Origin: Candidatus Latescibacterota bacterium
GTDB lineage: Bacteria; JAAXHH01; JABIQT01
Assembly (NCBI GenBank): GCA_018667995.1
Contig: JABIQT010000976.1
Location: forward strand, 1-12,762
DNA length: 12,762 nucleotides
Direction of reading: 5' to 3'
This document shows positions 170-12,626 of this stretch, one piece after another; the first letter of the stretch is position 1; each line of letters begins with the position of its first letter. The translations under genes were made by a program, and so were the position numbers. Under the pieces are notes generated by a model. It saw nothing but the letters and a program-made list of their open reading frames with translations. It was not told the origin of the DNA and did no database searches.

Positions 170-1099
170 GTGATAATCGACGCGCATGCCCACATTTTCC
201 CCTCTGTAAACGGTCGTATCAGGGCCGGAAAGACCCGTTCTGCCAATTATGGTAAGATGACGACGGGCTCGAATCAGACGATTCGTGTATTGCCACCGTG
301 CGCTGTAGAAACAGCGTTCCCCCCTGAGGTCCTCCTGGAATACATGGACTGGGCCGGCGTCGACAAGACAGTCCTTCTGCAGGGCACCTTTTACGGGGAG
401 TGCAACCGATACGCCGCCGATGCCATCCGAAAATGGCCGGACCGTCTACTAGGACAAGCATTCCTTGATCCGTGGGATTCGGGTTGCCGTGCAATGTTTG
501 AACAAGCCGTAGATGAACTGGGATTTCAAGGAATCAAGTTGGAGTTGAGTGAACCTACAGGACTGTCCGGTCTACATCCCAATGTGCGCCTGGACGATCC
601 CGAGCTCTCCTGGCTGTGGAATGCACTATCCCATAGGCAACTGCTCCTGACACTTGACCTGGGAGCTATTGGCAGCCAGTCCTATCAAACTGAAGCCGTC
701 CGCAGCCTCACATCTGAATACAGTGACCTACCTATCGTGATCGCTCACCTCGGACAGCCCAATCCTATGATGGAAGATGATGAGCACCAATTGAGCCAAT
801 GGCGGGAGCAGGTGGCTTTGGGATGCAACGAGAATGTGTATCTCGACACCGCGGCCTTGCCAGCTTACCTTCAGGACGAAGGCTATCCTTTCCCCTCCGC
901 GAAACGCTATTTGAAGACCGCAGTGGATATTGTTGGTCCGGATAAAATCCTCTGGGGCACGGACATCCCGGGACTCCTAACCGTTGCGACCTATCCTCAA
1001 CTTGTGCGACTGGCACACGAGCATACCGACTTTCTCTCCACGCGCGACCAAGCGAAGATCCTTGGTAGCAACGCCCAACTGGTCTACGGAAGACCCTAA
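170..1099 (+). CDS. Amidohydrolase-2 family TIM-barrel metal hydrolase
   Basis: A 309-residue protein of the amidohydrolase-related family (COG2159 type), which hydrolyses or decarboxylates small organic acids and lactones in the cytoplasm. Visible motifs are the metal-binding DAHAHIF at residues 4-10 (H6, H8), GIKLE at 121-125 (K123), IAHLG at 191-195 (H193) and LWGTDIPG at 261-268 (D265). These match the order of metal and catalytic residues on the barrel strands, and about 300 residues is normal for the family. Where many members carry a His on the middle strand (pattern hhhHhG), this one reads LTLDLG with Asp163. The start is GTG at 170, because DAHAH must lie at the N-terminus and no usual in-frame start lies between it and the preceding stop; the Shine-Dalgarno is weak. 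It sits between an aldolase fragment and an Ldh2 dehydrogenase, which suggests hydrolysis of a catabolic intermediate. The exact substrate is unknown. Confidence 0.88.
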   Translation: MIIDAHAHIFPSVNGRIRAGKTRSANYGKMTTGSNQTIRVLPPCAVETAFPPEVLLEYMDWAGVDKTVLLQGTFYGECNRYAADAIRKWPDRLLGQAFLDPWDSGCRAMFEQAVDELGFQGIKLELSEPTGLSGLHPNVRLDDPELSWLWNALSHRQLLLTLDLGAIGSQSYQTEAVRSLTSEYSDLPIVIAHLGQPNPMMEDDEHQLSQWREQVALGCNENVYLDTAALPAYLQDEGYPFPSAKRYLKTAVDIVGPDKILWGTDIPGLLTVATYPQLVRLAHEHTDFLSTRDQAKILGSNAQLVYGRP

Positions 1100-1111
1100 C
1101 CGAGGATATTC

Positions 1112-2200
1112 ATGGTGCCCAAATCGTTGCTTCTTGATCCCTTCGTAACTCGTATCGACCGCAATGACCTTGTTAACTTCTGCCGCAGTGCCCTCCAGTC
1201 AGTAAACATGACAGACGCCGATGCCCTCACGACCTCCGAAGTCTTGGTCAGGACCGATATGCGAGGCATCTACACGCACGGCACCTTATCATTGCGACGG
1301 TATGTAGAGCTAATGCGAGACGGCGGGATTGACCCTGCAGCCATTCCTGACATCATAAATGAAGGCCCTTCCTGGGCGTTGATGGACGCGCATCAGGCCG
1401 TAGGGATGGTGGCGGGCACGCGCGGCATGGAGCTTGCGATAGAAAAAGCAAAAACGACAGGTGTTGGGATGACAACCGTTCGAAGAAGCAATCACTTCGG
1501 GGCTGCATCAGCCTATACGCTGATGTCGTTAGACCATGGCATGGCCGGTATCGCCATGAGCAATACGGATGTGGTCATGAGCATACCTGGCGGCCGGGGT
1601 GCCAGAATTGGTAACAATCCACTGTCCTATGCCATACCCGCGAAAGAGCATGATCCGCTGGTCCTCGATATCGCCATGAGCACCGTTGCCGGTGGAAAAG
1701 TGGCTTCCGCCAAGTCCAGGGGCAAAACCATTCCCGACGACTGGCTAACTGATGCCAATGGATTGCCCACAACCGATCCGAATGTATTTCTGGATGAAGG
1801 AGCTCTGACACCTTTCGGGGCCCATAAAGGATATGGCATGGCCTTGTTGGTTGAATCCTTCGCTGGAGTTCTGGCCGGCGCGGCCATGACCACAGACATT
1901 CTTTCGTGGGCAAAAGAGTCCCATGAAGTTTGTGATGAGGGACATGCATTCATAGCAATAGACGTCGCAGCCATGATGCCCGACGGGCAGTTCGAAGCAC
2001 GTACAGACGAGTTGATATCCCGCATGAAGGGAGCCCCCAAAGCGAAGGGAAGCGATCGCACCTATGTCCCAGGTGAAATGGAATGGGAAAGTGAAGCGAT
2101 TGCTCAAGAGCATGGCGTGCCACTGACGCAGATGGCCATTGAGAGTCTCAACGGATTGGCAGAAGACACAGGACAGAGTTCGCTGTTTCCAAGAGCCTGA
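1112..2200 (+). CDS. Ldh2/malate dehydrogenase family NAD(P)-dependent oxidoreductase
   Basis: A 362-residue member of the malate/L-lactate dehydrogenase (Ldh_2) family, which interconverts 2-hydroxy acids and 2-oxo acids, or reduces cyclic imines, using NAD(P)H; it is unrelated to classical Rossmann-fold LDH. Evidence is the N-terminal RTDMRGIYTHG at 47-57 (family form D-x-R-G-x-x-S-H-G, His56), SNHFGAAS at 126-133, the loop GGKVASAKSRGKTIPDDW at 194-211, LPTTDP at 218-223, and GAHKGYGMALLVE at 236-248. Length is typical. Two small departures are THG for the usual SHG and PDDW where PxGW is common. The ATG start follows a GAGG Shine-Dalgarno at 1102-1105, and the gene begins 12 bases after the amidohydrolase, so they are probably one operon. 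Its place beside aldolases suggests it supplies or consumes the 2-oxo acid they cleave. Substrate specificity is inferred only. Confidence 0.93.
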   Translation: MVPKSLLLDPFVTRIDRNDLVNFCRSALQSVNMTDADALTTSEVLVRTDMRGIYTHGTLSLRRYVELMRDGGIDPAAIPDIINEGPSWALMDAHQAVGMVAGTRGMELAIEKAKTTGVGMTTVRRSNHFGAASAYTLMSLDHGMAGIAMSNTDVVMSIPGGRGARIGNNPLSYAIPAKEHDPLVLDIAMSTVAGGKVASAKSRGKTIPDDWLTDANGLPTTDPNVFLDEGALTPFGAHKGYGMALLVESFAGVLAGAAMTTDILSWAKESHEVCDEGHAFIAIDVAAMMPDGQFEARTDELISRMKGAPKAKGSDRTYVPGEMEWESEAIAQEHGVPLTQMAIESLNGLAEDTGQSSLFPRA

Positions 2201-2276
2201 ATTGCGCATAATTTGTCCTATAGCATCATGTCCGGGTGGCCCCAACACGTAATGAATACCACGATCGGGGTTAGGT

Positions 2277-3143
2277 ATGTCGCGTATCAACCGCGCAATT
2301 GCATTACTTTCGCAGGATCAACCAATTTACTATGCAAGTCCCTCGAGTGTGACCTACGAGGGTGGCATAGAATCTGCGCATACGTGGGCCGACTATCTGC
2401 TCGTGGAGATGGAACACGGCGTATTCAACCTGACGGCGTTGGATGACTTCATGCGGGGACTCGTAGCCGGCGGCCCTACGCGAAGTGGGCATCACACGCC
2501 ACCAGTCATCGTAACGGTACCAACGGATGCCACCAACGAAGCCGTGATGCTGGCCAATGCCTGGATGGTCAAACAGGTACTGGCTCGGGGTGTTCATGGT
2601 ATCTTATTGTGCCATGCTCGGTCACCGGAGGCCGTGCGGGTCTTCGTAGAATCCGCTCGATTCCCGTTTCAGAAAGCCGGCGTAGGCGATAGCCTCGGTG
2701 AAGGACAGCGTGGCGCAGGAGGACAGGGCAGTGCCGCGATTACCTGGGGTGTATCAGAAGAGGAGTACCTTCAGAAGGCCGATGTGTGGCCTCTCAATCC
2801 CGAAGGTGAAATCATGCTGGGCTTGAAGATAGAGGACCGTCACGCATTGGCCAACGTAGACGCAAGCCTCGCTGTTCCGGGCATCGCTTTCGCGGAGTGG
2901 GGCCCCGGTGATATGGGAATGTCATTCGGATATCCGAACCAGCATGACCCGCCATATGCCCCGGAGATGGAAGACGCAAGAACGACAGTATTGCAGGCCT
3001 GTCGGGAGAATGGCGTCGCATTCCTCAATGCGGTGACCGCGGACGACGTGACATCCATGATCGATGAAGGTGTTCGTGTCTGCGGTGGTCCCGAGGCGGC
3101 CGCCAATGTTGGCCGGGAATACACCCGACGGACGATGCCTTAG
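2277..3143 (+). CDS. HpcH/HpaI aldolase family protein
   Basis: A 288-residue class II aldolase of the HpcH/HpaI family, which cleaves 4-hydroxy-2-oxo acids (or condenses oxo acids with aldehydes) using a divalent metal. The sequence shows LLVEMEHGVF at 41-50, where His47 fits the usual catalytic base of the E-H-G motif; GQRGAGG around 143-149, fitting the usual substrate-binding G-x-R-G; KIEDRHALANVD at 184-195 (metal ligand Glu186); VPGIAF at 200-205; and GPGDMGMS at 209-216 (metal ligand Asp212). Length is slightly above the common 250-270 residues, mostly from a long Gly-rich loop at 135-175. The ATG at 2277 has a GGGG at 2267-2270 as the best available ribosome site. A 76-base gap before it shows no clear promoter or terminator. 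It is a second, different aldolase beside the truncated one at the left edge. Confidence 0.88.
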   Translation: MSRINRAIALLSQDQPIYYASPSSVTYEGGIESAHTWADYLLVEMEHGVFNLTALDDFMRGLVAGGPTRSGHHTPPVIVTVPTDATNEAVMLANAWMVKQVLARGVHGILLCHARSPEAVRVFVESARFPFQKAGVGDSLGEGQRGAGGQGSAAITWGVSEEEYLQKADVWPLNPEGEIMLGLKIEDRHALANVDASLAVPGIAFAEWGPGDMGMSFGYPNQHDPPYAPEMEDARTTVLQACRENGVAFLNAVTADDVTSMIDEGVRVCGGPEAAANVGREYTRRTMP

Positions 3144-3189
3144 CAGGCGGTCCGGCGGTAACCCTATCTTAGAAATCGGAATCATTGCA

Positions 3190-3195
3190 GGGAGG
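3190..3195 (+). promoter_or_regulatory. Ribosome binding site deciding the start of the first monooxygenase
   Basis: GGGAGG lies four bases before the ATG at 3200. The longer open frame could begin at TTG 3185, but that start would place this strong Shine-Dalgarno inside the coding region. The paralogous gene downstream also aligns from the ATG. Confidence 0.75.
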
Positions 3196-3199
3196 CTGC

Positions 3200-4282
3200 A
3201 TGATCAACTACGGTATGTTTCTGATGCCGGTCCATGATCCGAGTAAGGCGCCCGAACAGAGTTTTGATGAAGATCTGGAATTGGTAGTTCGGTGCGAGGA
3301 ATTGGGATTTACGGAATTCTGGGTTGGGGAGCATCACTCTTCTAGTTACGAGAACATCGTCATGCCCGAAATCTTCATAGGTAAGGCCCTCGGAATGACA
3401 AAGTCCATACGCATGGGCGCGGCACCAATCTGTCTTCCATATCACCACCCGGCACACGTCGCGAGCAGGCTCGCATTTCTTGACCATCTGTCCCATGGAC
3501 GACTCAATGTATGCTTTGGCCCCGGAGCGATTCCGACGGACTTTGAGATGTATGGTATTGATCCGCGGCAAGCGGGGGCCATGGTTGGCGAGTCCATCGA
3601 GATGATCATGAAACTCTGGTCGTCGGATCCGCCCTACAAAATTGACGGCCGCTTCTGGAATATCCACGTGGAGAAGGAAGTCAGAACCAAACTCGGTTTG
3701 GGCGTCTATCTCAAACCGCTACAGAAACCGCATCCCCCAGTTTCTGTCCCTGTGGTAAATCGAAATTCAGCGGGTACACGAATAGCCGGTGAGAAGGGGT
3801 ACTCTCCCTTCAGCCATCATATGGTAGCTGGCAATGTGATGCAGAATCATTGGGAGGTATATTCCGAGGGCGCCGCCCTCAAGAATATCACCCCGGATCG
3901 AAAGAAATGGAAGATCTCGCGCAACATATTCGTATCAGAGACTACCACCGATGCGAAGAACAAGGCACGCCATGGATCCATGGGGCAGTGCCTGGATTAT
4001 ATCCTCCAACTGAGCGATCTGGGCCCCGGACGAGGCATGTGGAAACGTGATCCTGAGACCCCTGATGCAGACGTCACACTGGATTACCTGCTTAAGGACC
4101 AAGTCATAGCAGGCGATCCGGAAGAAGTCGTTCGTCAATTGCTTGAGATGAGGGATGAAACGGGTGATTTCGGTACACTGGTCATGGTAGCACACGACTG
4201 GGACGACAAGGAAGCGTGCCTGCGCAGCATTGAACTTTTTTCGCGAGAAGTGATGCCTCTCCTAAACGAGGCCGTCCCTTGA
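3200..4282 (+). CDS. Luciferase-like (LLM class) flavin-dependent monooxygenase, copy 1
   Basis: A 360-residue luciferase-like TIM-barrel oxidoreductase. Members use reduced FMN (some use F420) to insert oxygen into, or oxidise, organic substrates; the limonene/alkane monooxygenase-like branch looks nearest. Evidence is the N-terminal strand MINYGMFLMP, ELGFTEFWVGEHH at 34-46 (the conserved E-H of the family), PYHHPAHVA at 80-88, DHLSHGRLNVCFGPG at 95-109, TDFEMYGIDP at 113-122, and a C-terminal HDWDD at 332-336. A cysteine (C105) in the NVCFGPG strand is shared with copy 2. The ATG at 3200 is chosen over an upstream TTG because of the GGGAGG before it and because copy 2 aligns from there. 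It follows the aldolase by 56 bases and precedes a paralogue by 60 bases. Whether FMN or F420 is used cannot be decided, and no flavin reductase is visible in the window. Confidence 0.92.
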   Translation: MINYGMFLMPVHDPSKAPEQSFDEDLELVVRCEELGFTEFWVGEHHSSSYENIVMPEIFIGKALGMTKSIRMGAAPICLPYHHPAHVASRLAFLDHLSHGRLNVCFGPGAIPTDFEMYGIDPRQAGAMVGESIEMIMKLWSSDPPYKIDGRFWNIHVEKEVRTKLGLGVYLKPLQKPHPPVSVPVVNRNSAGTRIAGEKGYSPFSHHMVAGNVMQNHWEVYSEGAALKNITPDRKKWKISRNIFVSETTTDAKNKARHGSMGQCLDYILQLSDLGPGRGMWKRDPETPDADVTLDYLLKDQVIAGDPEEVVRQLLEMRDETGDFGTLVMVAHDWDDKEACLRSIELFSREVMPLLNEAVP

Positions 4283-4331
4283 GGCTGAAAGCCCACTCTC
4301 TTATACAGATTGCCACCTTACATCGTTAGGA

Positions 4332-4336
4332 AAGGA
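4332..4336 (+). promoter_or_regulatory. Ribosome binding site deciding the start of the second monooxygenase
   Basis: AAGGA lies six bases before the ATG at 4343. Other in-frame starts exist at TTG 4310 and ATG 4337. The ATG at 4343 has good spacing and aligns with the N-terminus of copy 1 (YGMF near residue 3). Confidence 0.6.
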
Positions 4337-4342
4337 ATGCCC

Positions 4343-5410
4343 ATGCAGTACGGGATGTTTATCATGCCATTTCACGATCCCGCCAAACCCCTGGCGCAGT
4401 GCTACGACGAAGATCTTGAACTTGTGGTCATGGCCGAGGAAATGGGGTTCAGCGAATTCTGGGTCGGCGAACACCATACCATGCTGTACGAGAACATCGT
4501 GATGCCCGAGGCCTTCATCGGCAAGGCTCTGGGGTTGACGAGCACGATTCGACTGGGCACTGCTCCGACGTGCCTGCCATACCATCACCCTGCCCTGGTA
4601 GCGGGACGGCTTGCATTTCTGGATCATCTATCTCATGGACGATTGAATGTTTGTTTCGGACCCGGAAGCGTCACTACCGATCTTGAACTGTTCGGCATCG
4701 ATCCGAAAGACAATGGAGCCATGGCTGACGAGTCGGCAGAGATGATCCTGAAAATATGGTCTCAGGATCCGCCATACCATCTGAATGGACGATTCTGGAA
4801 CATAGATCTCGAAAAGAACGTAGACGAGGAAACGTTGATAGGGTACCTGCACAAACCGCTTCAACAGCCCCACCCGCCCATTTTTGCACCAGCAATGAGT
4901 ATGAATTCCAACACGATGAAGACTGCTGGCAGGCGTGGCTGGCTGCCCATAAGCAGCAATCTGATAGCAGGGAATGTGGTTGCTGACAATTGGCAGACGT
5001 ACGAATCCGCGGCCCGAGAGGCAGGAGGTACACCCGATCGCGCCGACTGGCGGGTTTGTCGCAGCATTTTCATTGGCGACACCTGTGAGGAGGCGGAAGC
5101 CGCAGTACGCAGTAATTCTCTGGGGCGCAACTTCCAGTATATTGGTGGACTCTTCGACAAGGGTCTAGGCCGTAAGGTGATGAAGCGTAACCCCGATGCG
5201 CCCGACTCGGAGACCGGTCTGGACTATCTCATGCAGGAGCAGATCATTCATGGTGATGTGGATGAAGTCGTCCGTCGTCTCGGGAGTCTCATGGACGAAA
5301 CCGGAGACTTTGGAACCTTGCTGTTAATGGGGTATGACTGGGACGACAGAGACGCGTGGACAAAAAGTATGCGCCTATTTGTAGACAAGGTCATCCCTGA
5401 ACTCAGTTGA
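4343..5410 (+). CDS. Luciferase-like (LLM class) flavin-dependent monooxygenase, copy 2
   Basis: A 355-residue paralogue of the preceding gene, aligning along its whole length with over half of residues identical by eye. It has the same landmarks: MQYGMFIMPFHDP at the N-terminus, FWVGEHH at 39-45, PYHHPALVAGR at 79-89, DHLSHGRLNVCFGPG at 94-108 with Cys104, TDLELFGIDP at 112-121, and YDWDD at 331-335. Differences cluster at residues 155-240, a region expected to shape the substrate pocket in this fold, so the copies probably differ in substrate or form a two-chain enzyme as luciferase does. Both ideas are inference. The reaction is probably oxygenation of an organic compound with a reduced flavin. 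The 60-base gap from copy 1 includes a GGCT/AGCC mini-hairpin at 4283-4293 without a T-run, so read-through is likely. Confidence 0.92.
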   Translation: MQYGMFIMPFHDPAKPLAQCYDEDLELVVMAEEMGFSEFWVGEHHTMLYENIVMPEAFIGKALGLTSTIRLGTAPTCLPYHHPALVAGRLAFLDHLSHGRLNVCFGPGSVTTDLELFGIDPKDNGAMADESAEMILKIWSQDPPYHLNGRFWNIDLEKNVDEETLIGYLHKPLQQPHPPIFAPAMSMNSNTMKTAGRRGWLPISSNLIAGNVVADNWQTYESAAREAGGTPDRADWRVCRSIFIGDTCEEAEAAVRSNSLGRNFQYIGGLFDKGLGRKVMKRNPDAPDSETGLDYLMQEQIIHGDVDEVVRRLGSLMDETGDFGTLLLMGYDWDDRDAWTKSMRLFVDKVIPELS

Positions 5411-5522
5411 CGCTACCAGGAAGTTTATTCGCCATCAACAGGGCGGAATAAAAAACGCCGATAGGCGCGCACGTCCGACGAGACCGTTTGGCTTACTTTC
5501 TAAAGAGAACGAGAGGTATTCA

Positions 5523-6329
5523 ATGAAGGGCCCCCGTCTTCCGTATCGCTACGACCACTACACCTGGGTCGAATTGCGTGACATGGTATCCAAGCAACCC
5601 GTAATTGTCCTGCCTGTGGGCTCTACCGAGGACCACGGGCATCACATGCCTATGGACGTGGATACCTTTCTGGCCAGCAGCGTCTGTGAAGGGGCGGCAA
5701 AGATCATCCCTGACGAGGTGCTGCTACTGCCCGCCATTCCTTATGGGTTTGAAGATCATCATATGGACTTCCCCGGCACCATAACGATCCGGGATGATCA
5801 CATGCTGTCATTCGTGCTCGATATTACAAACAGCGTGGCACACCACGGGTTCAAGAAGATTCTGATCGTCAACGGGCACGGCTCCAATGCAACGATTCTT
5901 GAGATGGCCGCCAGACGCACAGTCATCGAGACCGACGTGCATTGTGGCATGCTGAACTGGTGGAGCATGGCTCAATCCAAGCTCTGGGAAATCGGAGATT
6001 CAGAACTGCAGTCGCATGCCGACGAGATCGAGACGTCTGTGTATAGGTTTCTAAACGATGACGCCGTGCAGATGGACAAAGCCACACGCGAAGTGAAGAT
6101 CCCTGATTCGAAATACTACTGGCGAGGCTGGGTGCGTGGGCAGGGAGCCTCACCGCTGCGGCTCATGGACCAATGGTCCCGGATTTCCGACTCGGGTGTG
6201 ATTGGGGATGCCACAGTCGCGACGGTAGAGAAGGGCGAGACTCTGTTTCACACCGCTGCCAAGGGATTGGCGGAACTCATACAGGAATTTCGACAGCTAC
6301 CCATAGAAACCAGAATCGATAGGCATTGA
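5523..6329 (+). CDS. Creatininase-family metal-dependent amidohydrolase
   Basis: A 268-residue creatininase/creatinine amidohydrolase-family protein, a dinuclear metal hydrolase fold that includes creatininase, FAPy deformylase (ArfB) and MftE. The motif GSTEDHGHHMPMDVDTFLA at 33-51 supplies likely ligands Glu36, His38 and Asp47. NGHGSN at 117-122 supplies His119, and SHADEIETS at 164-172 supplies the late acidic residues. Length is normal for the family. The ATG start is preceded by GAGAGG at 5511-5516 with good spacing. The 112-base gap before it is the largest between genes, so a new transcript may begin here, though no convincing promoter was found. The 3' end overlaps the start of the pabB-like gene in TTGA, which points to translational coupling. 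True creatininase activity is not implied: the family is functionally broad and the substrate is unknown. Confidence 0.9.
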   Translation: MKGPRLPYRYDHYTWVELRDMVSKQPVIVLPVGSTEDHGHHMPMDVDTFLASSVCEGAAKIIPDEVLLLPAIPYGFEDHHMDFPGTITIRDDHMLSFVLDITNSVAHHGFKKILIVNGHGSNATILEMAARRTVIETDVHCGMLNWWSMAQSKLWEIGDSELQSHADEIETSVYRFLNDDAVQMDKATREVKIPDSKYYWRGWVRGQGASPLRLMDQWSRISDSGVIGDATVATVEKGETLFHTAAKGLAELIQEFRQLPIETRIDRH

Positions 6330-7606
6330 CTACGCGATCATCTACATCCACCGACCAGCATTCCTTCCGTCTTGATACCGGCTATGGCTACGGTCACGTG
6401 GATGCCACCTCATATGCAGGTCGGAAACCCTTTCAGGTAATCAGGGCCTGGGGCGACCGAATCGAAATAGAAACGGCAGGTGAGATAGAGCATCTGGTCG
6501 GTGACCCACTCACGGCATTGAAGGCTATTCTGGACAGAAACACCCATGGTATCATTGAGGCAGAACCAGGACTGGCAAGTGGAGGAATGGTGGGCTATCT
6601 CGGATACGGCCTCCGTCGATGGACCGAGCGAGTCGATGCCACTACTGCTGACGATCTTGGTCTGCCGGATCTCTGGTTTGCCTGTTACGATAGCATCAAC
6701 AGTCATACTAATGATGATGCAGGGCGCGAGGACCCAGTTGCCTTTCCGAATGAGAAAACCGGGCATACTTGGCTGCCGGAACGCAGTACGTACTCCAAAG
6801 TCAAATACCTGAGCACCGTAGAGCACATAAAACGCTATATCACTGCAGGCGATGTTTACCAGGTGAATCTCACCCAGCGTTTTTCATATCCGTTTAGAGG
6901 TCCATCGGAAGCCCTTTACGACCACCTGATTCGCATCAATCCTTCCCCGTTTGCCGCATATCTGGATTGTGGCGCTTTTCAGGTGGTAAGCGCCTCTCCT
7001 GAGCGATTCATGAAGCTGAATCCGATTACACGAATCGTTGAAACAAGTCCCATAAAGGGAACCCGACCCAGGAGTGGTCATAGGATCGCGGATCAAGAGA
7101 TGGCCGACGAATTGCTTGCCAGTGGTAAGGACCGGGCCGAGCATCTTATGATCGTCGACCTGGAGCGGAATGATCTCGGTCGCGTATGCGACACCGGCAC
7201 GGTAAAGGTGCCGGATCTCATTTCGTTGGATCCCCATCCTTCGGTATGGCACCTCGTTTCCACCGTAACGGGCCACCTCAGGGACGATGCCGACCGTATT
7301 GATCTCATCAGGGCAGCGTTCCCCGGTGGTTCCATCACTGGTGCACCAAAAATCAGAGCAATGGAGATCATAGACGAACTCGAGCCTCTGGCGCGAGGGG
7401 TGTATACAGGTGCTATCGGGTATTTCGGGTTCGATGGTTCCATGGATTTCAATATCGCCATTAGATCCATAGTGGTGACCGGTGGGACGGCCCACGTCTA
7501 CGTGGGAGGAGGCATCGTGGCTGACTCCGATCCAGCAGCGGAATATCAGGAGACCCTCGACAAGGGACGCGCCATGTTCGAAGCACTATCAGAGGTCGAC
7601 TGGTAA
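6326..7606 (+). CDS. pabB: Aminodeoxychorismate synthase component I (PabB-like)
   Basis: A 426-residue chorismate-utilising enzyme of the PabB/TrpE family. PabB adds ammonia to chorismate to make 4-amino-4-deoxychorismate, the precursor of p-aminobenzoate for folate. Motifs include GGMVGYLGYGLRRW at 86-99, GDVYQVNLTQRF at 175-186, SASPERF at 222-228, TSPIKGTRPR at 240-249, HLMIVDLERNDLGRVC at 273-288, and YVGGGIVADSDP at 392-403. The Lys244 of PIKGT is the lysine typical of PabB; TrpE enzymes usually carry Ala there, which favours PabB. An in-frame TAG at 6320-6322 forbids any earlier start, so TTG at 6326, overlapping the previous stop, is the first possible. The N-terminal domain is therefore rather short against E. 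coli PabB. No PabA-type glutaminase gene is present in the window. The gene is followed four bases later by the pabC-like gene. Confidence 0.9.
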   Translation: MTTRSSTSTDQHSFRLDTGYGYGHVDATSYAGRKPFQVIRAWGDRIEIETAGEIEHLVGDPLTALKAILDRNTHGIIEAEPGLASGGMVGYLGYGLRRWTERVDATTADDLGLPDLWFACYDSINSHTNDDAGREDPVAFPNEKTGHTWLPERSTYSKVKYLSTVEHIKRYITAGDVYQVNLTQRFSYPFRGPSEALYDHLIRINPSPFAAYLDCGAFQVVSASPERFMKLNPITRIVETSPIKGTRPRSGHRIADQEMADELLASGKDRAEHLMIVDLERNDLGRVCDTGTVKVPDLISLDPHPSVWHLVSTVTGHLRDDADRIDLIRAAFPGGSITGAPKIRAMEIIDELEPLARGVYTGAIGYFGFDGSMDFNIAIRSIVVTGGTAHVYVGGGIVADSDPAAEYQETLDKGRAMFEALSEVDW

Positions 7607-7610
7607 ATCC

Positions 7611-8468
7611 ATGAGTGATCCCTTCGTTGCGCTCAACGGCACATTGATACCTACGGATACAGCATCTGTTCCCATCTCCGATCGGGGTCTGCTCTATGGA
7701 GACGGTTTATTTGAGACAATACGCATCTACAACGGTGTACCATTCAGGCTTCATTCCCATCTGAATCGTCTCTCGAAAGCAGCTGAGACACTGCGCTTCA
7801 GGACTACGTTGACAGAGCAGGCATTCGAAGCTACTATATCTGAGCTGCTTTCGGCGAACGTACGGAGTGACGGTGTCCTTCGAGTCATGGTCACACGCGG
7901 ATCAGGAGAACCCGGCCTCGATCCCAATGAGGCGTTGGTACCTACGGTTCTCATGACCACGTCTCCGGCGCGCGCTACACTGGCTCCCGGCTGTCATGTT
8001 GTTACGGTCCAAGCTCGCAGAGATGAGCGTTCACCTCTCAGTCTTCTCAAGTCGATTAATTACCTGCCAAACATTCTGGCTCGTTTCGAAGTCAAAGATA
8101 GAAATGCCGACGAAGGCCTGAGTCTAAACGTAGCGGGAGCCGTGGCCGAGGGCACCGTAAGCAACGTCTTCTGGATGAAGGGTTCCGTCTTGTACACGCC
8201 TGCGATCTCCTGTGGTATTCTCGCAGGGGTTACCAGACAAATTGTTCTCGAGATTGCCGAGAAAGAGGGAATACTCGTAGCGGAAGGATCATTCGGCTTA
8301 TCGGCTCTGAGGGGCGCCGAAGCGTTGCTGTTGACGAACTCACTGATAGAACTCGTGAGTGCCTCTCGTTTGGACGACCTGTGTTTCGAAAACAGAGATC
8401 ACCCGATTATCACGAAATTGCAGGATGCCTATCGCCAGATCGTAGGCCGGGAAACGACATCATCGTAG
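7611..8468 (+). CDS. pabC: Aminotransferase class IV protein, probable aminodeoxychorismate lyase (PabC)
   Basis: A 285-residue fold-type IV PLP enzyme. Adjacent to pabB it most likely converts 4-amino-4-deoxychorismate to p-aminobenzoate and pyruvate. Evidence is SDRGLLYGDGLFETIR at 23-38, LLKSINYLPNILAR at 145-158 with the PLP-binding Lys147, AEGTVSNVF at 179-187, and LLTNSLIE at 240-247. The same fold includes branched-chain and D-amino-acid aminotransferases, and sequence alone separates them poorly; the pabB neighbour decides the call. The start is ATG 7611, four bases after the pabB stop; a longer frame from ATG 7482 would overlap pabB by 125 bases and add 43 residues of non-family sequence. 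No strong Shine-Dalgarno is seen at the chosen start, so coupling to pabB translation is likely. The next gene begins 12 bases downstream. Confidence 0.86.
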   Translation: MSDPFVALNGTLIPTDTASVPISDRGLLYGDGLFETIRIYNGVPFRLHSHLNRLSKAAETLRFRTTLTEQAFEATISELLSANVRSDGVLRVMVTRGSGEPGLDPNEALVPTVLMTTSPARATLAPGCHVVTVQARRDERSPLSLLKSINYLPNILARFEVKDRNADEGLSLNVAGAVAEGTVSNVFWMKGSVLYTPAISCGILAGVTRQIVLEIAEKEGILVAEGSFGLSALRGAEALLLTNSLIELVSASRLDDLCFENRDHPIITKLQDAYRQIVGRETTSS

Positions 8469-8480
8469 TAAGGGAATAAA

Positions 8481-10613
8481 GTGACCACTGAAGACCATAA
8501 AACAGTAGGCAGGAGCCCGCAAATGAAATGGTTCTACTTCGGGCTTATCCTGCTGATCCTCAGCTTCTGGGTTGAGGCTATCCGCCCTCTGGCCTGGGCC
8601 GTCCTGGTGGTCGGTGGTGCCTACATCATAATAAAGCGTCGAGATCGTTTGTTCTCGAAGGTCCGAAGTCGTCTGTTGATCTCCTTTGTCTTCGTAGGTC
8701 TCGTTCCCATGGCTCTATTTGCAGTGATCGTCGTCGCCATGGCCTGGTTTTCTACGGGTGCTATCGGGGCTGCCCAGGTAAAGAAACACCTGGTAAGATC
8801 CCAGGAGCAGCTTGATCGGTTGCCCGGGCTGCTTCAGCAGGAGGTGTACCGATCCATTATTCAGTCTGATTCCGTTGACCACGTTGGAGCTGTTCAACGG
8901 ATGCTCTCCACGATGCCAGAAGCGACGACACCATCGATCCTGCTCTACGAGCTGGACAGTCTCATCTTTACCAGCGATGCAGGCTTGCCAGCTACCACCG
9001 TACCATCTTGGTATATTGGAACGCAACTGACCGCCATCACGGTTAACGACTCGGATCTGACTATAAGGACCATTGCCGATATTGATCTGGGGTACGGTCG
9101 CATGACCATGCTGGCGTCGCTGCCCATTGATACAGCTTATCAGGAAATGGTCTGGGAGGAAACCGGGGCTTTTGTTTTCGGAACTACGTTTATTGATCGA
9201 GGCAGTGAGTCAGACGATGAAGGTCGCCAGGTAGGGCAAGGCTTCCGAGTAGCACCAGACATTGAGATGCACCCGGACACGCTACACATCGCCCTTCCAC
9301 AGTGGCTGCACGATCTTAGGATTGTCTGGCTTGGTGCGATTGCAGCAATGGACTGGCAAACCGGGCAGGATGATCGGGAGATGGTACTTGGATTCGCAGT
9401 CCTCATAGATCCGGTTTACACACTCCATACTTCGACCTCTCAGGAGTATGACCAAGCGGGCTTTTTTATCCTGGTTCTTGGTATCCTCGCTGCGATTCTC
9501 CTGGTCGTCGAGCTCATTGCCTTCCTGATTGGCTTCATTATCTCACGCCGTATCACTTCTGCGGTCCATGGTCTATCTGAAGGAACGAAAGCCCTTCAAC
9601 AAGGCAACCTGGACTATCGCATTGAAACGCGCAGACATGACCAGTTAGGGGAGATGGGCAATTCCTTTAACACAATGGCTCAGAACATACAGGATCTTCT
9701 GGCAAAGCTCCAGGCCCATGCGGACGAGCTTGAGGTGCGAGTGGCAGAGCGTACCTCAGAAATAGAGAGGTCCTTGTCTGAATTGAAAGCGGCGCAATCG
9801 CAGATGATTCAGAGCGAGAAAATGGCGGCGCTTGGAAAGCTTGTAGCCGGAGTTGTTCATGAAATGAATACGCCAATTGGAGCCATCAATAGCGCAACCG
9901 ACACCTCCAACAGATGCGTGACAGCAATCATCGATACATTGGATACCGGCGATTCAATCGACGAAATCAAAGCCAATCCGGCTATGAAGCGTGCCCTTCA
10001 AACGCTGCCAGATGGCAACCGTGTCACAGTGGATGCCAGTCAGCGGCTGTCAAAGATCGTGAGCAGCCTGAAGAGCTTCACGCGTCTCGACGAAGCGACC
10101 GTCCAGGAAATGGACATCCACGAAGGGCTGGATGATACACTGACCTTGATGGAGCACGATCTCGCAGACCGTATCCAGGTAGTCAAAATCTATGGTGAGC
10201 TTCCGTTGGTAGTCTGCTACCCGGGTGAGATCAATCAGGTCCTCATGCATCTTATCTCAAACGCCTCTCAGGCGATCGCCTCGACAGGTGTCGTTACCAT
10301 TCGCACATCGGCCACAAGCAGCCACGTCACGATTCAAATTGCGGACACCGGAAGAGGCATTCCAGAGGAGCAACTGGCCAACCTTTTTGAACCGGATTTT
10401 TCGCATCAGGGCCCCCGGGTCAAAGCTGGCCTCGGTTTGTTTACTACGTACAATATCATAGAGAAACACGACGGCCGAATTGCTATAGAGAGTGAAGTCA
10501 ATCGCGGCACTACGGTGACTGTGACTCTTCCGGTCAGCGTTATATCCAGGACCTTGAATCAAGGATCTGATGACGGCAATGGAACTGTGTCAAACAGGGC
10601 ACTGGAATCTTAA
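8481..10613 (+). CDS. Membrane sensor histidine kinase with HAMP domain
   Basis: A 710-residue inner-membrane kinase. It has hydrophobic segments at about 17-32 and 36-52, another at about 66-90, an extracytoplasmic region at about 91-326, and a transmembrane helix at about 327-354. HAMP follows from SRRITSAVH at 355-363 to about 410, then a coiled coil at about 405-445. The kinase core carries GKLVAGVVHEMNTP at 452-465 (phospho-acceptor His460), the N-box HLISNASQAI at 590-599 (Asn594), ADTGRGIP at 621-628 and GLGLF at 650-654 for ATP binding. The segment between, FEPDFSHQG, departs from the usual FEPFFTTK. The start is GTG 8481 after AGGGA at 8471-8475. No response regulator is in the window. 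The input half is homologous to that of the following phosphatase, so both probably read related signals. The signal is unknown. Confidence 0.93.
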   Translation: MTTEDHKTVGRSPQMKWFYFGLILLILSFWVEAIRPLAWAVLVVGGAYIIIKRRDRLFSKVRSRLLISFVFVGLVPMALFAVIVVAMAWFSTGAIGAAQVKKHLVRSQEQLDRLPGLLQQEVYRSIIQSDSVDHVGAVQRMLSTMPEATTPSILLYELDSLIFTSDAGLPATTVPSWYIGTQLTAITVNDSDLTIRTIADIDLGYGRMTMLASLPIDTAYQEMVWEETGAFVFGTTFIDRGSESDDEGRQVGQGFRVAPDIEMHPDTLHIALPQWLHDLRIVWLGAIAAMDWQTGQDDREMVLGFAVLIDPVYTLHTSTSQEYDQAGFFILVLGILAAILLVVELIAFLIGFIISRRITSAVHGLSEGTKALQQGNLDYRIETRRHDQLGEMGNSFNTMAQNIQDLLAKLQAHADELEVRVAERTSEIERSLSELKAAQSQMIQSEKMAALGKLVAGVVHEMNTPIGAINSATDTSNRCVTAIIDTLDTGDSIDEIKANPAMKRALQTLPDGNRVTVDASQRLSKIVSSLKSFTRLDEATVQEMDIHEGLDDTLTLMEHDLADRIQVVKIYGELPLVVCYPGEINQVLMHLISNASQAIASTGVVTIRTSATSSHVTIQIADTGRGIPEEQLANLFEPDFSHQGPRVKAGLGLFTTYNIIEKHDGRIAIESEVNRGTTVTVTLPVSVISRTLNQGSDDGNGTVSNRALES
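9501..9716 (+). other. HAMP segment of the kinase, matched in the downstream phosphatase
   Basis: This stretch encodes the end of the last transmembrane helix and the HAMP domain of the kinase (about residues 341-412). Its counterpart at about 11649-11867 in the phosphatase is clearly homologous: both contain SRRITSAVH and LDYRIET, and both have the following DQL and SFN-MA blocks. The similarity marks a duplicated sensor module. Confidence 0.85.
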
Positions 10614-10616
10614 TCA

Positions 10617-12626
10617 ATGAACACTGAAGTCAAGCAACTCCCCATATCAACGAAGGACAGCGACGTGCCAGAGATGGATTTTGCGCACCGCTTGTGGTCC
10701 ATTCTATCACCAAACAGCCGCATGAAACGATGGACTTATGCGGGTATCATCATGGCAAATATTGGGGATCTGTGGAGCATTTTTCCAGTGATATCGATTC
10801 CAATGCTTGTGATCAGTGCGGTATACTATACCTACTGCGCCGGTAGCTGGCTTAAAGGCCGACTATTGTGGAAAGTACGCAATCGCATTCTGGCCTCATT
10901 CGTATTCGTTGGAATCGTCCCCCTATGCCTGGCTCTACTCATCAGCGTGACGATCGGGTGGTTTCTGATCGGAGCCATGGGAACGAACCTGACGAAGCGT
11001 CACTTCCAATCGACGACGGATCAGCTATCTCACTTATCTCAAGATGTGGAATTGGCCCTCTATCAGGCCGACAAAGAGGCTGGATTACCCTTTGTCGAGG
11101 CCATAAATAAAGTCGTTCAGACCAATCAAGAACTGCAAGGACTGGCTGTAGGAATCTTCGAACGTGACGGCGTTGGTGCCAGACGGCTGTATGCCTGGCC
11201 ACCCAATCGAATAGCGGACAAATTGCCTGAGTGGGCCGCCCGGTCGGATTATGCCGGTGCTGTAAGGGACAGCACAGATCGAGGCATCATCAACGAATTC
11301 CGAGCCGTTTCTGATATCGATGTCGACGGACGTCAATTATTTGTACTTACCTCTGTGCCCATAGACCAGATCTATCAGAATCGTGTTTGGGAGGATGCTG
11401 GTGTTCTCTTGACTTCAAGCCCCTTTCTGTTTGATCAACAATCACCGAAAACTGCATGGACACCTTTGCCCTGGGGTTTAGGGGAATTCAAATTGCCCTG
11501 GGGGACCATGTATTCATGGATTGACTGGGAGCAGAACGAGCCTCAGGGCGACCTCATCACCGGCATGATGGATCCGGCAAGAATCATCGCTGATACCATG
11601 AGTATGGAGGCGGATGTCGTTCAGATAGTGAGCGCAGCTCTGGTTGGGCTCTGCACAGTACTTGCCGGCGTGGAGTTTGTTTCATTTCTCATCGGATTGA
11701 TTATCTCCAGACGTATCACGTCAGCAGTACACAGTCTGTCCCGTGCCACCCAGGCGATTCGCTCGGGTCGACTCGACTACAGAATCGAAACCCAGCGTAA
11801 CGACCAATTGGATGAACTCTCCCGTTCGTTCAATGACATGGCAGGCAGCATCGAGGTACTCCTCAATCAGGTGCGCGACAAGCACCGGATCGAAGCAGAA
11901 CTGGAAATGGCCCGAGAAGTTCAAGCGCGTTTTCTACCGGGATCTCCTCCCGAGAACGGACGTCTGGAACTAGCCGCCACGTGGCATCCAGCTCGAATGG
12001 TGAGCGGCGATTATTATGATTTCATCGTACATGACAATCGCGTGATAGATATCGTTGTTGCAGATATCTCCGGCAAGGGAATGTCTGCGGCTTTAATGAT
12101 GGCAGGCCTGCAGTCCGCGTTGCGATCCCATTCCATGATCGGAGAGAATGACCTGGCACCCGGGCGAGTCTCAAGACTGGTCGACAGGCTGAATCAGCAT
12201 CTCTGCCTAAATTCAGCGCCTGATAAATTCGCCACCATGTTCATATGCTCCTACGACATCCATACCTCGCTGATGACCTATACATGTGCTGGGCACAATC
12301 CGCCGTATCTGTATCGCGATGACACACGCAGGGAACTGACGGTAGGTGGGTGTCCGATTGGTATGTTCACGGAATGGGAATATGAAGAGGAAACAATTGC
12401 GATTGAGCCGAAGGATCTTCTTGTGATTTATACCGATGGTATCACCGAGGCACAGAACACGCATCAGGAGGAATTCGGTGAAGAGCGGTTAGGGGCCGAA
12501 ATCGAGAACAGCCGCGAATTGCCGTGTGAAGAAATTCAGGACAGAATTCTGGCCGCAGTACGGGATTTCTCGCACGGGGCCGAGCAGTTCGACGATCAAA
12601 CGGTTGTCGTAGGACGAGCTATGTAA
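10617..12626 (+). CDS. Membrane-bound SpoIIE/PP2C-type serine phosphatase with HAMP domain
   Basis: A 669-residue membrane protein with hydrophobic segments at about 41-75 and 91-121, an extracytoplasmic region at about 122-333, a transmembrane helix at about 334-363, and HAMP from SRRITSAVH at 364-372 to about 417. A linker helix (about 418-437) leads to a SpoIIE/RsbU-type phosphatase. Catalytic motifs are MVSGDYYDF at 461-469 (Asp465), VADISGKGMSAAL at 481-493 (Asp483), AGHNPP at 558-563, YTDGITEA at 605-612 (Asp607) and FDDQTVVV at 658-665 (Asp659, Asp660), all intact. Such enzymes dephosphorylate anti-anti-sigma factors or other Ser/Thr phosphoproteins; no anti-sigma or STAS gene is visible here. 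The ATG lies three bases after the kinase stop with no good Shine-Dalgarno, implying coupled translation. The sensor half is a divergent copy of the kinase's. Confidence 0.94.
   Translation: MNTEVKQLPISTKDSDVPEMDFAHRLWSILSPNSRMKRWTYAGIIMANIGDLWSIFPVISIPMLVISAVYYTYCAGSWLKGRLLWKVRNRILASFVFVGIVPLCLALLISVTIGWFLIGAMGTNLTKRHFQSTTDQLSHLSQDVELALYQADKEAGLPFVEAINKVVQTNQELQGLAVGIFERDGVGARRLYAWPPNRIADKLPEWAARSDYAGAVRDSTDRGIINEFRAVSDIDVDGRQLFVLTSVPIDQIYQNRVWEDAGVLLTSSPFLFDQQSPKTAWTPLPWGLGEFKLPWGTMYSWIDWEQNEPQGDLITGMMDPARIIADTMSMEADVVQIVSAALVGLCTVLAGVEFVSFLIGLIISRRITSAVHSLSRATQAIRSGRLDYRIETQRNDQLDELSRSFNDMAGSIEVLLNQVRDKHRIEAELEMAREVQARFLPGSPPENGRLELAATWHPARMVSGDYYDFIVHDNRVIDIVVADISGKGMSAALMMAGLQSALRSHSMIGENDLAPGRVSRLVDRLNQHLCLNSAPDKFATMFICSYDIHTSLMTYTCAGHNPPYLYRDDTRRELTVGGCPIGMFTEWEYEEETIAIEPKDLLVIYTDGITEAQNTHQEEFGEERLGAEIENSRELPCEEIQDRILAAVRDFSHGAEQFDDQTVVVGRAM

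Follow-up and report, generated by a model that had tools for sequence, protein, structure and literature searches.

The question raised by this locus is whether two neighbouring receptor genes, one for a histidine kinase and one for a SpoIIE phosphatase, form a unit in which a duplicated sensor wires one signal into opposite outputs, as an earlier note on this DNA had inferred, and whether relatives conserve it. The window that we analysed is an entire contig of 12,762 bp, part of a fragmented genome of 6.06 Mb (G000), and the two genes lie on the same strand with a gap of exactly three bases, the spacing that had been reported before (Table 1). The first product, P0001, qualifies as a sensor histidine kinase: its Pfam matches to HAMP (48.3 bits) and HATPase_c (residues 584-685, 76.7 bits) are both over the cut-off and that to HisKA (residues 451-475) is weak, with 20.1 bits against a curated cut-off of 26.9, and the DHp histidine H460, the second N-box asparagine, DxGxG and GLGL are all present. 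The second product, P0002, qualifies as a SpoIIE/PPM phosphatase, since besides its HAMP match it carries a SpoIIE domain (PF07228, 156.9 bits against a cut-off of 25) with metal-binding aspartate motifs, the phosphatase motifs present being SGDYYDF, VADISGKG, TDGITE and FDDQT.

Table 1. Features of the window and parts of the two receptors (nucleotide positions, unless residues are indicated)
Feature	Position	Strand	Remarks
Ldh_2 (malate/L-lactate dehydrogenase type)	1112..2200	+	conserved cluster
HpcH/HpaI aldolase and two luciferase-like monooxygenases (LLM)	2277..5410	+	conserved cluster
Creatininase-family enzyme	5523..6329	+	adjoins the phosphatase gene in most relatives
Aminodeoxychorismate synthase component I (pabB) like	6326..7606	+	directly upstream of the phosphatase in G001 and G011
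Aminotransferase class IV, aminodeoxychorismate-lyase-like (pabC)	7611..8468	+	
P0001, transmembrane histidine kinase	8481..10613	+	GTG start, 710 aa
Kinase TM3 end and ectodomain	8736..9458	+	Cache/extracytoplasmic-PAS-like lobe (model)
Kinase core	9732..10550	+	phylum's nearest relatives (G013 orthologue aside) directly upstream of receiver-SpoIIE genes
P0002, transmembrane SpoIIE/PPM receptor phosphatase	10617..12626	+	ATG start, 669 aa
Phosphatase TM3 end and ectodomain	10950..11621	+	Cache/extracytoplasmic-PAS-like lobe (model)
P0001, membrane and extracytoplasmic parts	residues: N-terminal hydrophobic segments ~16-51; TM3 67-85; ectodomain ~87-327; TM4 328-346		
P0001, cytoplasmic parts	residues: HAMP 354-405; coiled-coil linker; DHp with H460; HATPase		
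P0002, membrane and extracytoplasmic parts	residues: N-terminal hydrophobic segments ~38-70; TM3 91-109; ectodomain ~112-344; TM4 345-363		
P0002, cytoplasmic parts	residues: HAMP 363-413; SpoIIE 477-665		

Alignment of the two proteins by BLASTP yielded 32% identity and 51% similarity over 426 alignment columns, a similarity that is far beyond chance given its E value of 1e-55. The homology takes in the N-terminal membrane helices and everything up to and including HAMP; shortly past that domain, at the output linker, the alignment ends (residue 422 of P0001 and residue 432 of P0002), which fits an exchange of modules at this point and agrees with the proposal that sensory domains and coiled-coil linkers are exchangeable among PPM phosphatases, histidine kinases and GGDEF enzymes (PMC12143880). 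Identity is uneven along the shared part, amounting to 23% between the ectodomains and 59% from TM4 to HAMP, so that the membrane and HAMP parts carry most of the similarity. Several details of the earlier note were found as it gave them, namely the matching ectodomain blocks (SLPIDTAYQEMVWEETG against SVPIDQIYQNRVWEDAG), the tryptophan-bearing stretch ahead of the last membrane helix (in P0001, W283 and W292) and the beginnings of the HAMP domains, which hardly differ (IISRRITSAVH). The shared motif that it had placed at the N-terminus also exists, but it reads R-x-R-x-L-x-S-F-V-F-V-G, with one x where two had been reported before the serine, and it begins the third membrane segment, hydrophobic segments preceding it. 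The Pfam domains and this homology support the view that the kinase and the phosphatase are paralogous membrane receptors with the same input architecture and different outputs.

To what family the ectodomain belongs was examined in the 17 proteins that carry it. None of the 17 ectodomains matched a Cache or CHASE sensor domain of Pfam up to an E value of 1, we found no solved structure related to them by sequence, and the named database scan brought up a single real relative, which belongs to a Candidatus Latescibacterota MAG. Among the matches listed for 368 sampled genomes of other phyla the ectodomain profile had no convincing one, two outside matches (E 0.003-0.004, over 40-60 positions) being taken as chance, and those of the whole module outside the phylum were, again among the matches listed, to TM4-HAMP only. 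Thirteen alignment positions are invariant in 17/17 proteins including both kinases, comprising P-x-W, two further tryptophans and D-P, and these may be structural. The AlphaFold2 models, built with three sequences per alignment, have a mean pLDDT of 62 for the phosphatase and 56 for the kinase and leave the membrane-proximal part of the ectodomain without a resolved structure; at this low confidence the two predicted structures both follow the order long helix, helix, two strands, short helix, three strands, helix, with the short helix of the kinase model being three residues long. Comparison with the PDB, made with the phosphatase model (pLDDT 62), pointed to the sensor domains of WalK, KinD, LuxQ, CHASE4 and PhoQ (Z 8-10, best chain 10.8), and Foldseek with the same low-confidence model gave E values no better than 3e-3. 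The claim that the input domain matches no named sensor domain holds for the sequence, which has no Pfam family, but the low-confidence models look similar to the known Cache/extracytoplasmic-PAS fold. We take the ectodomain to be a sequence family that Pfam lacks, with what the models suggest to be a known kind of fold, and the kinase and phosphatase ectodomains would share this Cache fold.

Such sharing of an input by different enzymes has precedents. Domains of the dCache_1 type are common to histidine kinases, chemoreceptors, cyclases and Ser/Thr phosphatases (PMC7584622, PMC10104139); the case described here is alike in having one extracytoplasmic domain family on different outputs and, in the models, a Cache-like lobe, and differs in that its ectodomain has no Pfam Cache match and is seen, in the sample searched, in this phylum only. 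BifA and SagS of Pseudomonas aeruginosa have divergent and structurally similar periplasmic sensory domains in proteins whose functions differ, with conserved signal transduction (PMC6669338), but neither a SpoIIE output nor the ectodomain found here. SiaA of the same species is, like P0002, a membrane receptor with HAMP and a PP2C-like output, and the SiaA family NF038263 is the best NCBIfam match of P0002, extending over TM4-HAMP-SpoIIE with 69.1 bits, far below the cut-off of 700; unlike SiaA, P0002 has no adjacent SiaB/SiaC-like genes, has extra N-terminal hydrophobic segments and bears an ectodomain that SiaA does not match.

The genomic surroundings of the phosphatase proved to be more constant than the pair itself. 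Our sample of the phylum comprised 16 genomes including that of the window, all of one order and only one of them from the window's family. A SpoIIE-type orthologue without a kinase of the same sensor is present in 14 of the 15 other genomes, at 45-51% identity. In these 14 relatives the genes follow a constant order, Ldh2, HpcH aldolase, LLM1, LLM2, creatininase and, in last place, the phosphatase (L064-L078), with some stretches covering the cluster in part and that of G001 having no creatininase match. The window keeps this order (1112-6329 and 10617-12626) with pabC and the kinase in addition; the open reading frame listed for pabC, starting at 7482, is over-extended into pabB. The phosphatase is hence a core element that closes a conserved metabolic cluster across the phylum, and the kinase gene, judging by its spacing and strand, would belong to the same predicted operon. 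We found no literature on SpoIIE proteins with creatininase or LLM genes. That a receptor phosphatase is tied to a metabolic cluster across the phylum is a more informative finding than the pair. The two tandem LLM monooxygenase genes of the window (3185-5410) share 54% identity, and each is kept in relatives as a separate orthologue. The cluster of G011 (L074:12440-15262) holds two additions between LLM1 and the creatininase gene, a hybrid histidine kinase of the CHASE8-HAMP type that has receiver domains, and an Hpt protein encoded separately; this is an unrelated kinase that was added to the same operon. In G012 the SpoIIE receptor is split over two frames (L075:7775-9888).

The kinase presents a different distribution. 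The pair occurs in one of the 16 genomes, that of the window, and the kinase lineage in two, G000 and G013, the latter having the kinase type only, in a gene that stands alone away from the cluster with its frames broken. In G013 the orthologue of the cluster's creatininase (87%) is succeeded by a converging gene where the phosphatase would normally stand, an absence that because of this converging gene is not merely due to a contig end there. The pair is therefore not conserved in the 15 other genomes surveyed, and they do not support the idea of a conserved wired unit, which the earlier note itself had tied to conservation in relatives. Patchy retention or transfer explains where the kinase is found, in a sample holding one genome of the window's family.

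What the kinase might act upon can be approached through its catalytic core, whose phospho-acceptor histidine aligns in 48/48 related cores. Leaving the G013 orthologue aside, the nearest cores in the phylum are those of a PAS kinase on contig C63 of the window genome (46%) and of a G001 kinase (43%), both encoded directly upstream of a receiver-SpoIIE gene, and G000 has two further kinases neighbouring such genes, on C958 and C490. Equally close cores are found in other phyla (up to 51%, in G073), mostly without SpoIIE neighbours, a receiver-SpoIIE gene coming directly after the kinase in a few of about 40 loci (G172, G205 and G072). This kinship, read from sequences and from neighbourhoods without a matched control, is suggestive. 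Signalling from a kinase to a receiver-PP2C protein is known from RsfS/RsfR of Mycobacterium smegmatis, a tested pair acting on partner switching (PMC10950880), in which, as in the window, a sensor kinase gene adjoins a PP2C-type phosphatase gene; the RsfR-type phosphatase differs in having a receiver that the kinase phosphorylates, in place of which P0002, with no Response_reg match in Pfam, has an ectodomain of its own. Given these neighbours and this precedent, opposite outputs are not a safe description of the two receptors and were not established, and both branches could converge. Such adjacency recurs in the window genome, where besides P0001 three genes for histidine kinases adjoin receiver-SpoIIE genes (L130:1688-4409, L128:989-5131 and L131:4329-6199), and at L127:4065-5231 a cyclic-nucleotide-binding domain is fused to SpoIIE in a protein of 388 aa.

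From these data the best surviving alternative can be formulated, namely that the kinase phosphorylates a receiver-SpoIIE protein encoded elsewhere, for example of the C63 type, so that the outputs of the two receptors are parallel and both feed partner switching. The receiver-SpoIIE genes directly downstream of the phylum's nearest cores and the mycobacterial precedent speak for it, but most other kinases with related cores adjoin other response regulators or none, and the C63 phosphatase is already paired with a kinase of its own. We regard it as a tentative possibility, which is compatible with the explanation that we favour below and specifies the target of the kinase.

The earlier proposal that one signal is split over two wires, both receptors recognising one ligand, perhaps as heterodimers formed at the level of HAMP, and serving a phosphorelay and a phosphatase branch, has to be judged against the history of the two sensors. 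In its favour are the three-base spacing, with which the two proteins are probably made together, the HAMP regions with their 59% identity and the 13 invariant ectodomain positions. In a tree of the 17 sensor-HAMP modules, which is unrooted, has long branches and for which we name no root, the kinases of the window and of G013 formed one clade (support 100/100), and a sister grouping of the window's kinase and phosphatase was rejected (AU test, P = 0.00026). Identities of 18-24% separate the kinase ectodomain from every phosphatase ectodomain, that of the window included, so that the 23% between the neighbours is no closer than pairs across species, and there is no sign in these identities of convergence or concerted evolution of the two ectodomains within the genome. 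The rejected grouping and these identities indicate that the split is old and was not followed by concerted evolution in the window genome. They rule out a recent tandem duplication; of the duplicated sensor that the earlier note saw, the paralogy stands and the recent tandem origin does not. Since the kinase is also missing in 14 of the 15 relatives, and the phosphatase apparently in G013, one signal shared by both receptors is in our judgement unlikely.

Somewhat more doubtful still is that the kinase has become dispensable, a relict that drifts toward loss and has no specific role beside the phosphatase. Its absence from 14 of 15 relatives would agree with this, as would the broken frames of the G013 homologue and the replacement of the first N-box asparagine by histidine (P0001 residues 589-593), which among the 48 aligned cores is observed in two, from the window kinase and its G013 orthologue. 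However, the window kinase is of full length and retains the catalytic motifs listed above, and its core is 67% identical between the two genera, which suggests constraint on the kinase. The G013 homologue (L076:387-2600) extends over three frames with two breaks, either sequencing error or decay, and one of these lies near a run of eight G and may thus be a sequencing error. Least credible of all is that a phylum-specific family of Cache-like ectodomains couples the cluster to the phosphatase and, in this lineage, also to the kinase in one operon, the two forming a switch, heterodimeric or ratio-sensing, that responds to a single extracellular compound; this we hold to be very improbable.

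Taking all these results together, we consider it reasonably probable that an old module came to serve two outputs, that the phosphatase senses a compound related to the cluster and that the kinase belongs to an old sister lineage. The sharing of the sensor-HAMP module by two output types is best read as ancient, and the kinase is an old sister lineage mostly missing from the phylum. In this explanation one old module, consisting of N-terminal hydrophobic segments, a transmembrane helix, the Cache-like ectodomain, a second transmembrane helix and HAMP, would have been joined after HAMP to two enzymes. Each receptor would most likely be a homodimer, in which TM4, HAMP and a helical linker would relay the state of the ectodomain to the output. 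The phosphatase would most likely sense an extracytoplasmic compound tied to the metabolic cluster, a ligand suggested by gene order only, candidate substrates of the cluster being guanidino/creatinine-like compounds, p-aminobenzoate and hydroxy acids; its HAMP and coiled-coil linker would control dimerisation and activity of the PPM domain, and this domain would act by removing phosphate from a STAS anti-anti-sigma protein whose gene lies elsewhere. In the kinase the same module would drive a core of the type sometimes adjoining receiver-SpoIIE phosphatases, and its putative target would be a receiver protein also encoded elsewhere. The 12,762-bp contig encodes no cognate receiver or STAS target; RsbW-like ATPases that stand free and small STAS proteins (C697, C1071, C52 and C903) are encoded in the window genome, none of them beside the pair.

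PPM phosphatases and histidine kinases are known to exchange inputs, and the pair is best read as a case of this, probably a lineage-specific example of such swapping of sensor modules. Dimerisation of the coiled-coil linker is the activating step of PPM phosphatases and the reason proposed for their exchange of inputs with kinases and cyclases (PMC12143880); that linker toolkit is a general proposal, of which the natural adjacent pair is a further instance. An adjacent receptor kinase and receptor phosphatase are new in the literature that we searched, and are not a conserved unit. Lying side by side, they provide a natural test of the way in which the same sensor-HAMP module drives two enzymes that are unrelated, which is a question opened by PMC12143880. 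The tie between the cluster and the phosphatase suggests that in these uncultured bacteria partner switching may report a specific extracellular compound, at whose identity the enzymes of the cluster hint.
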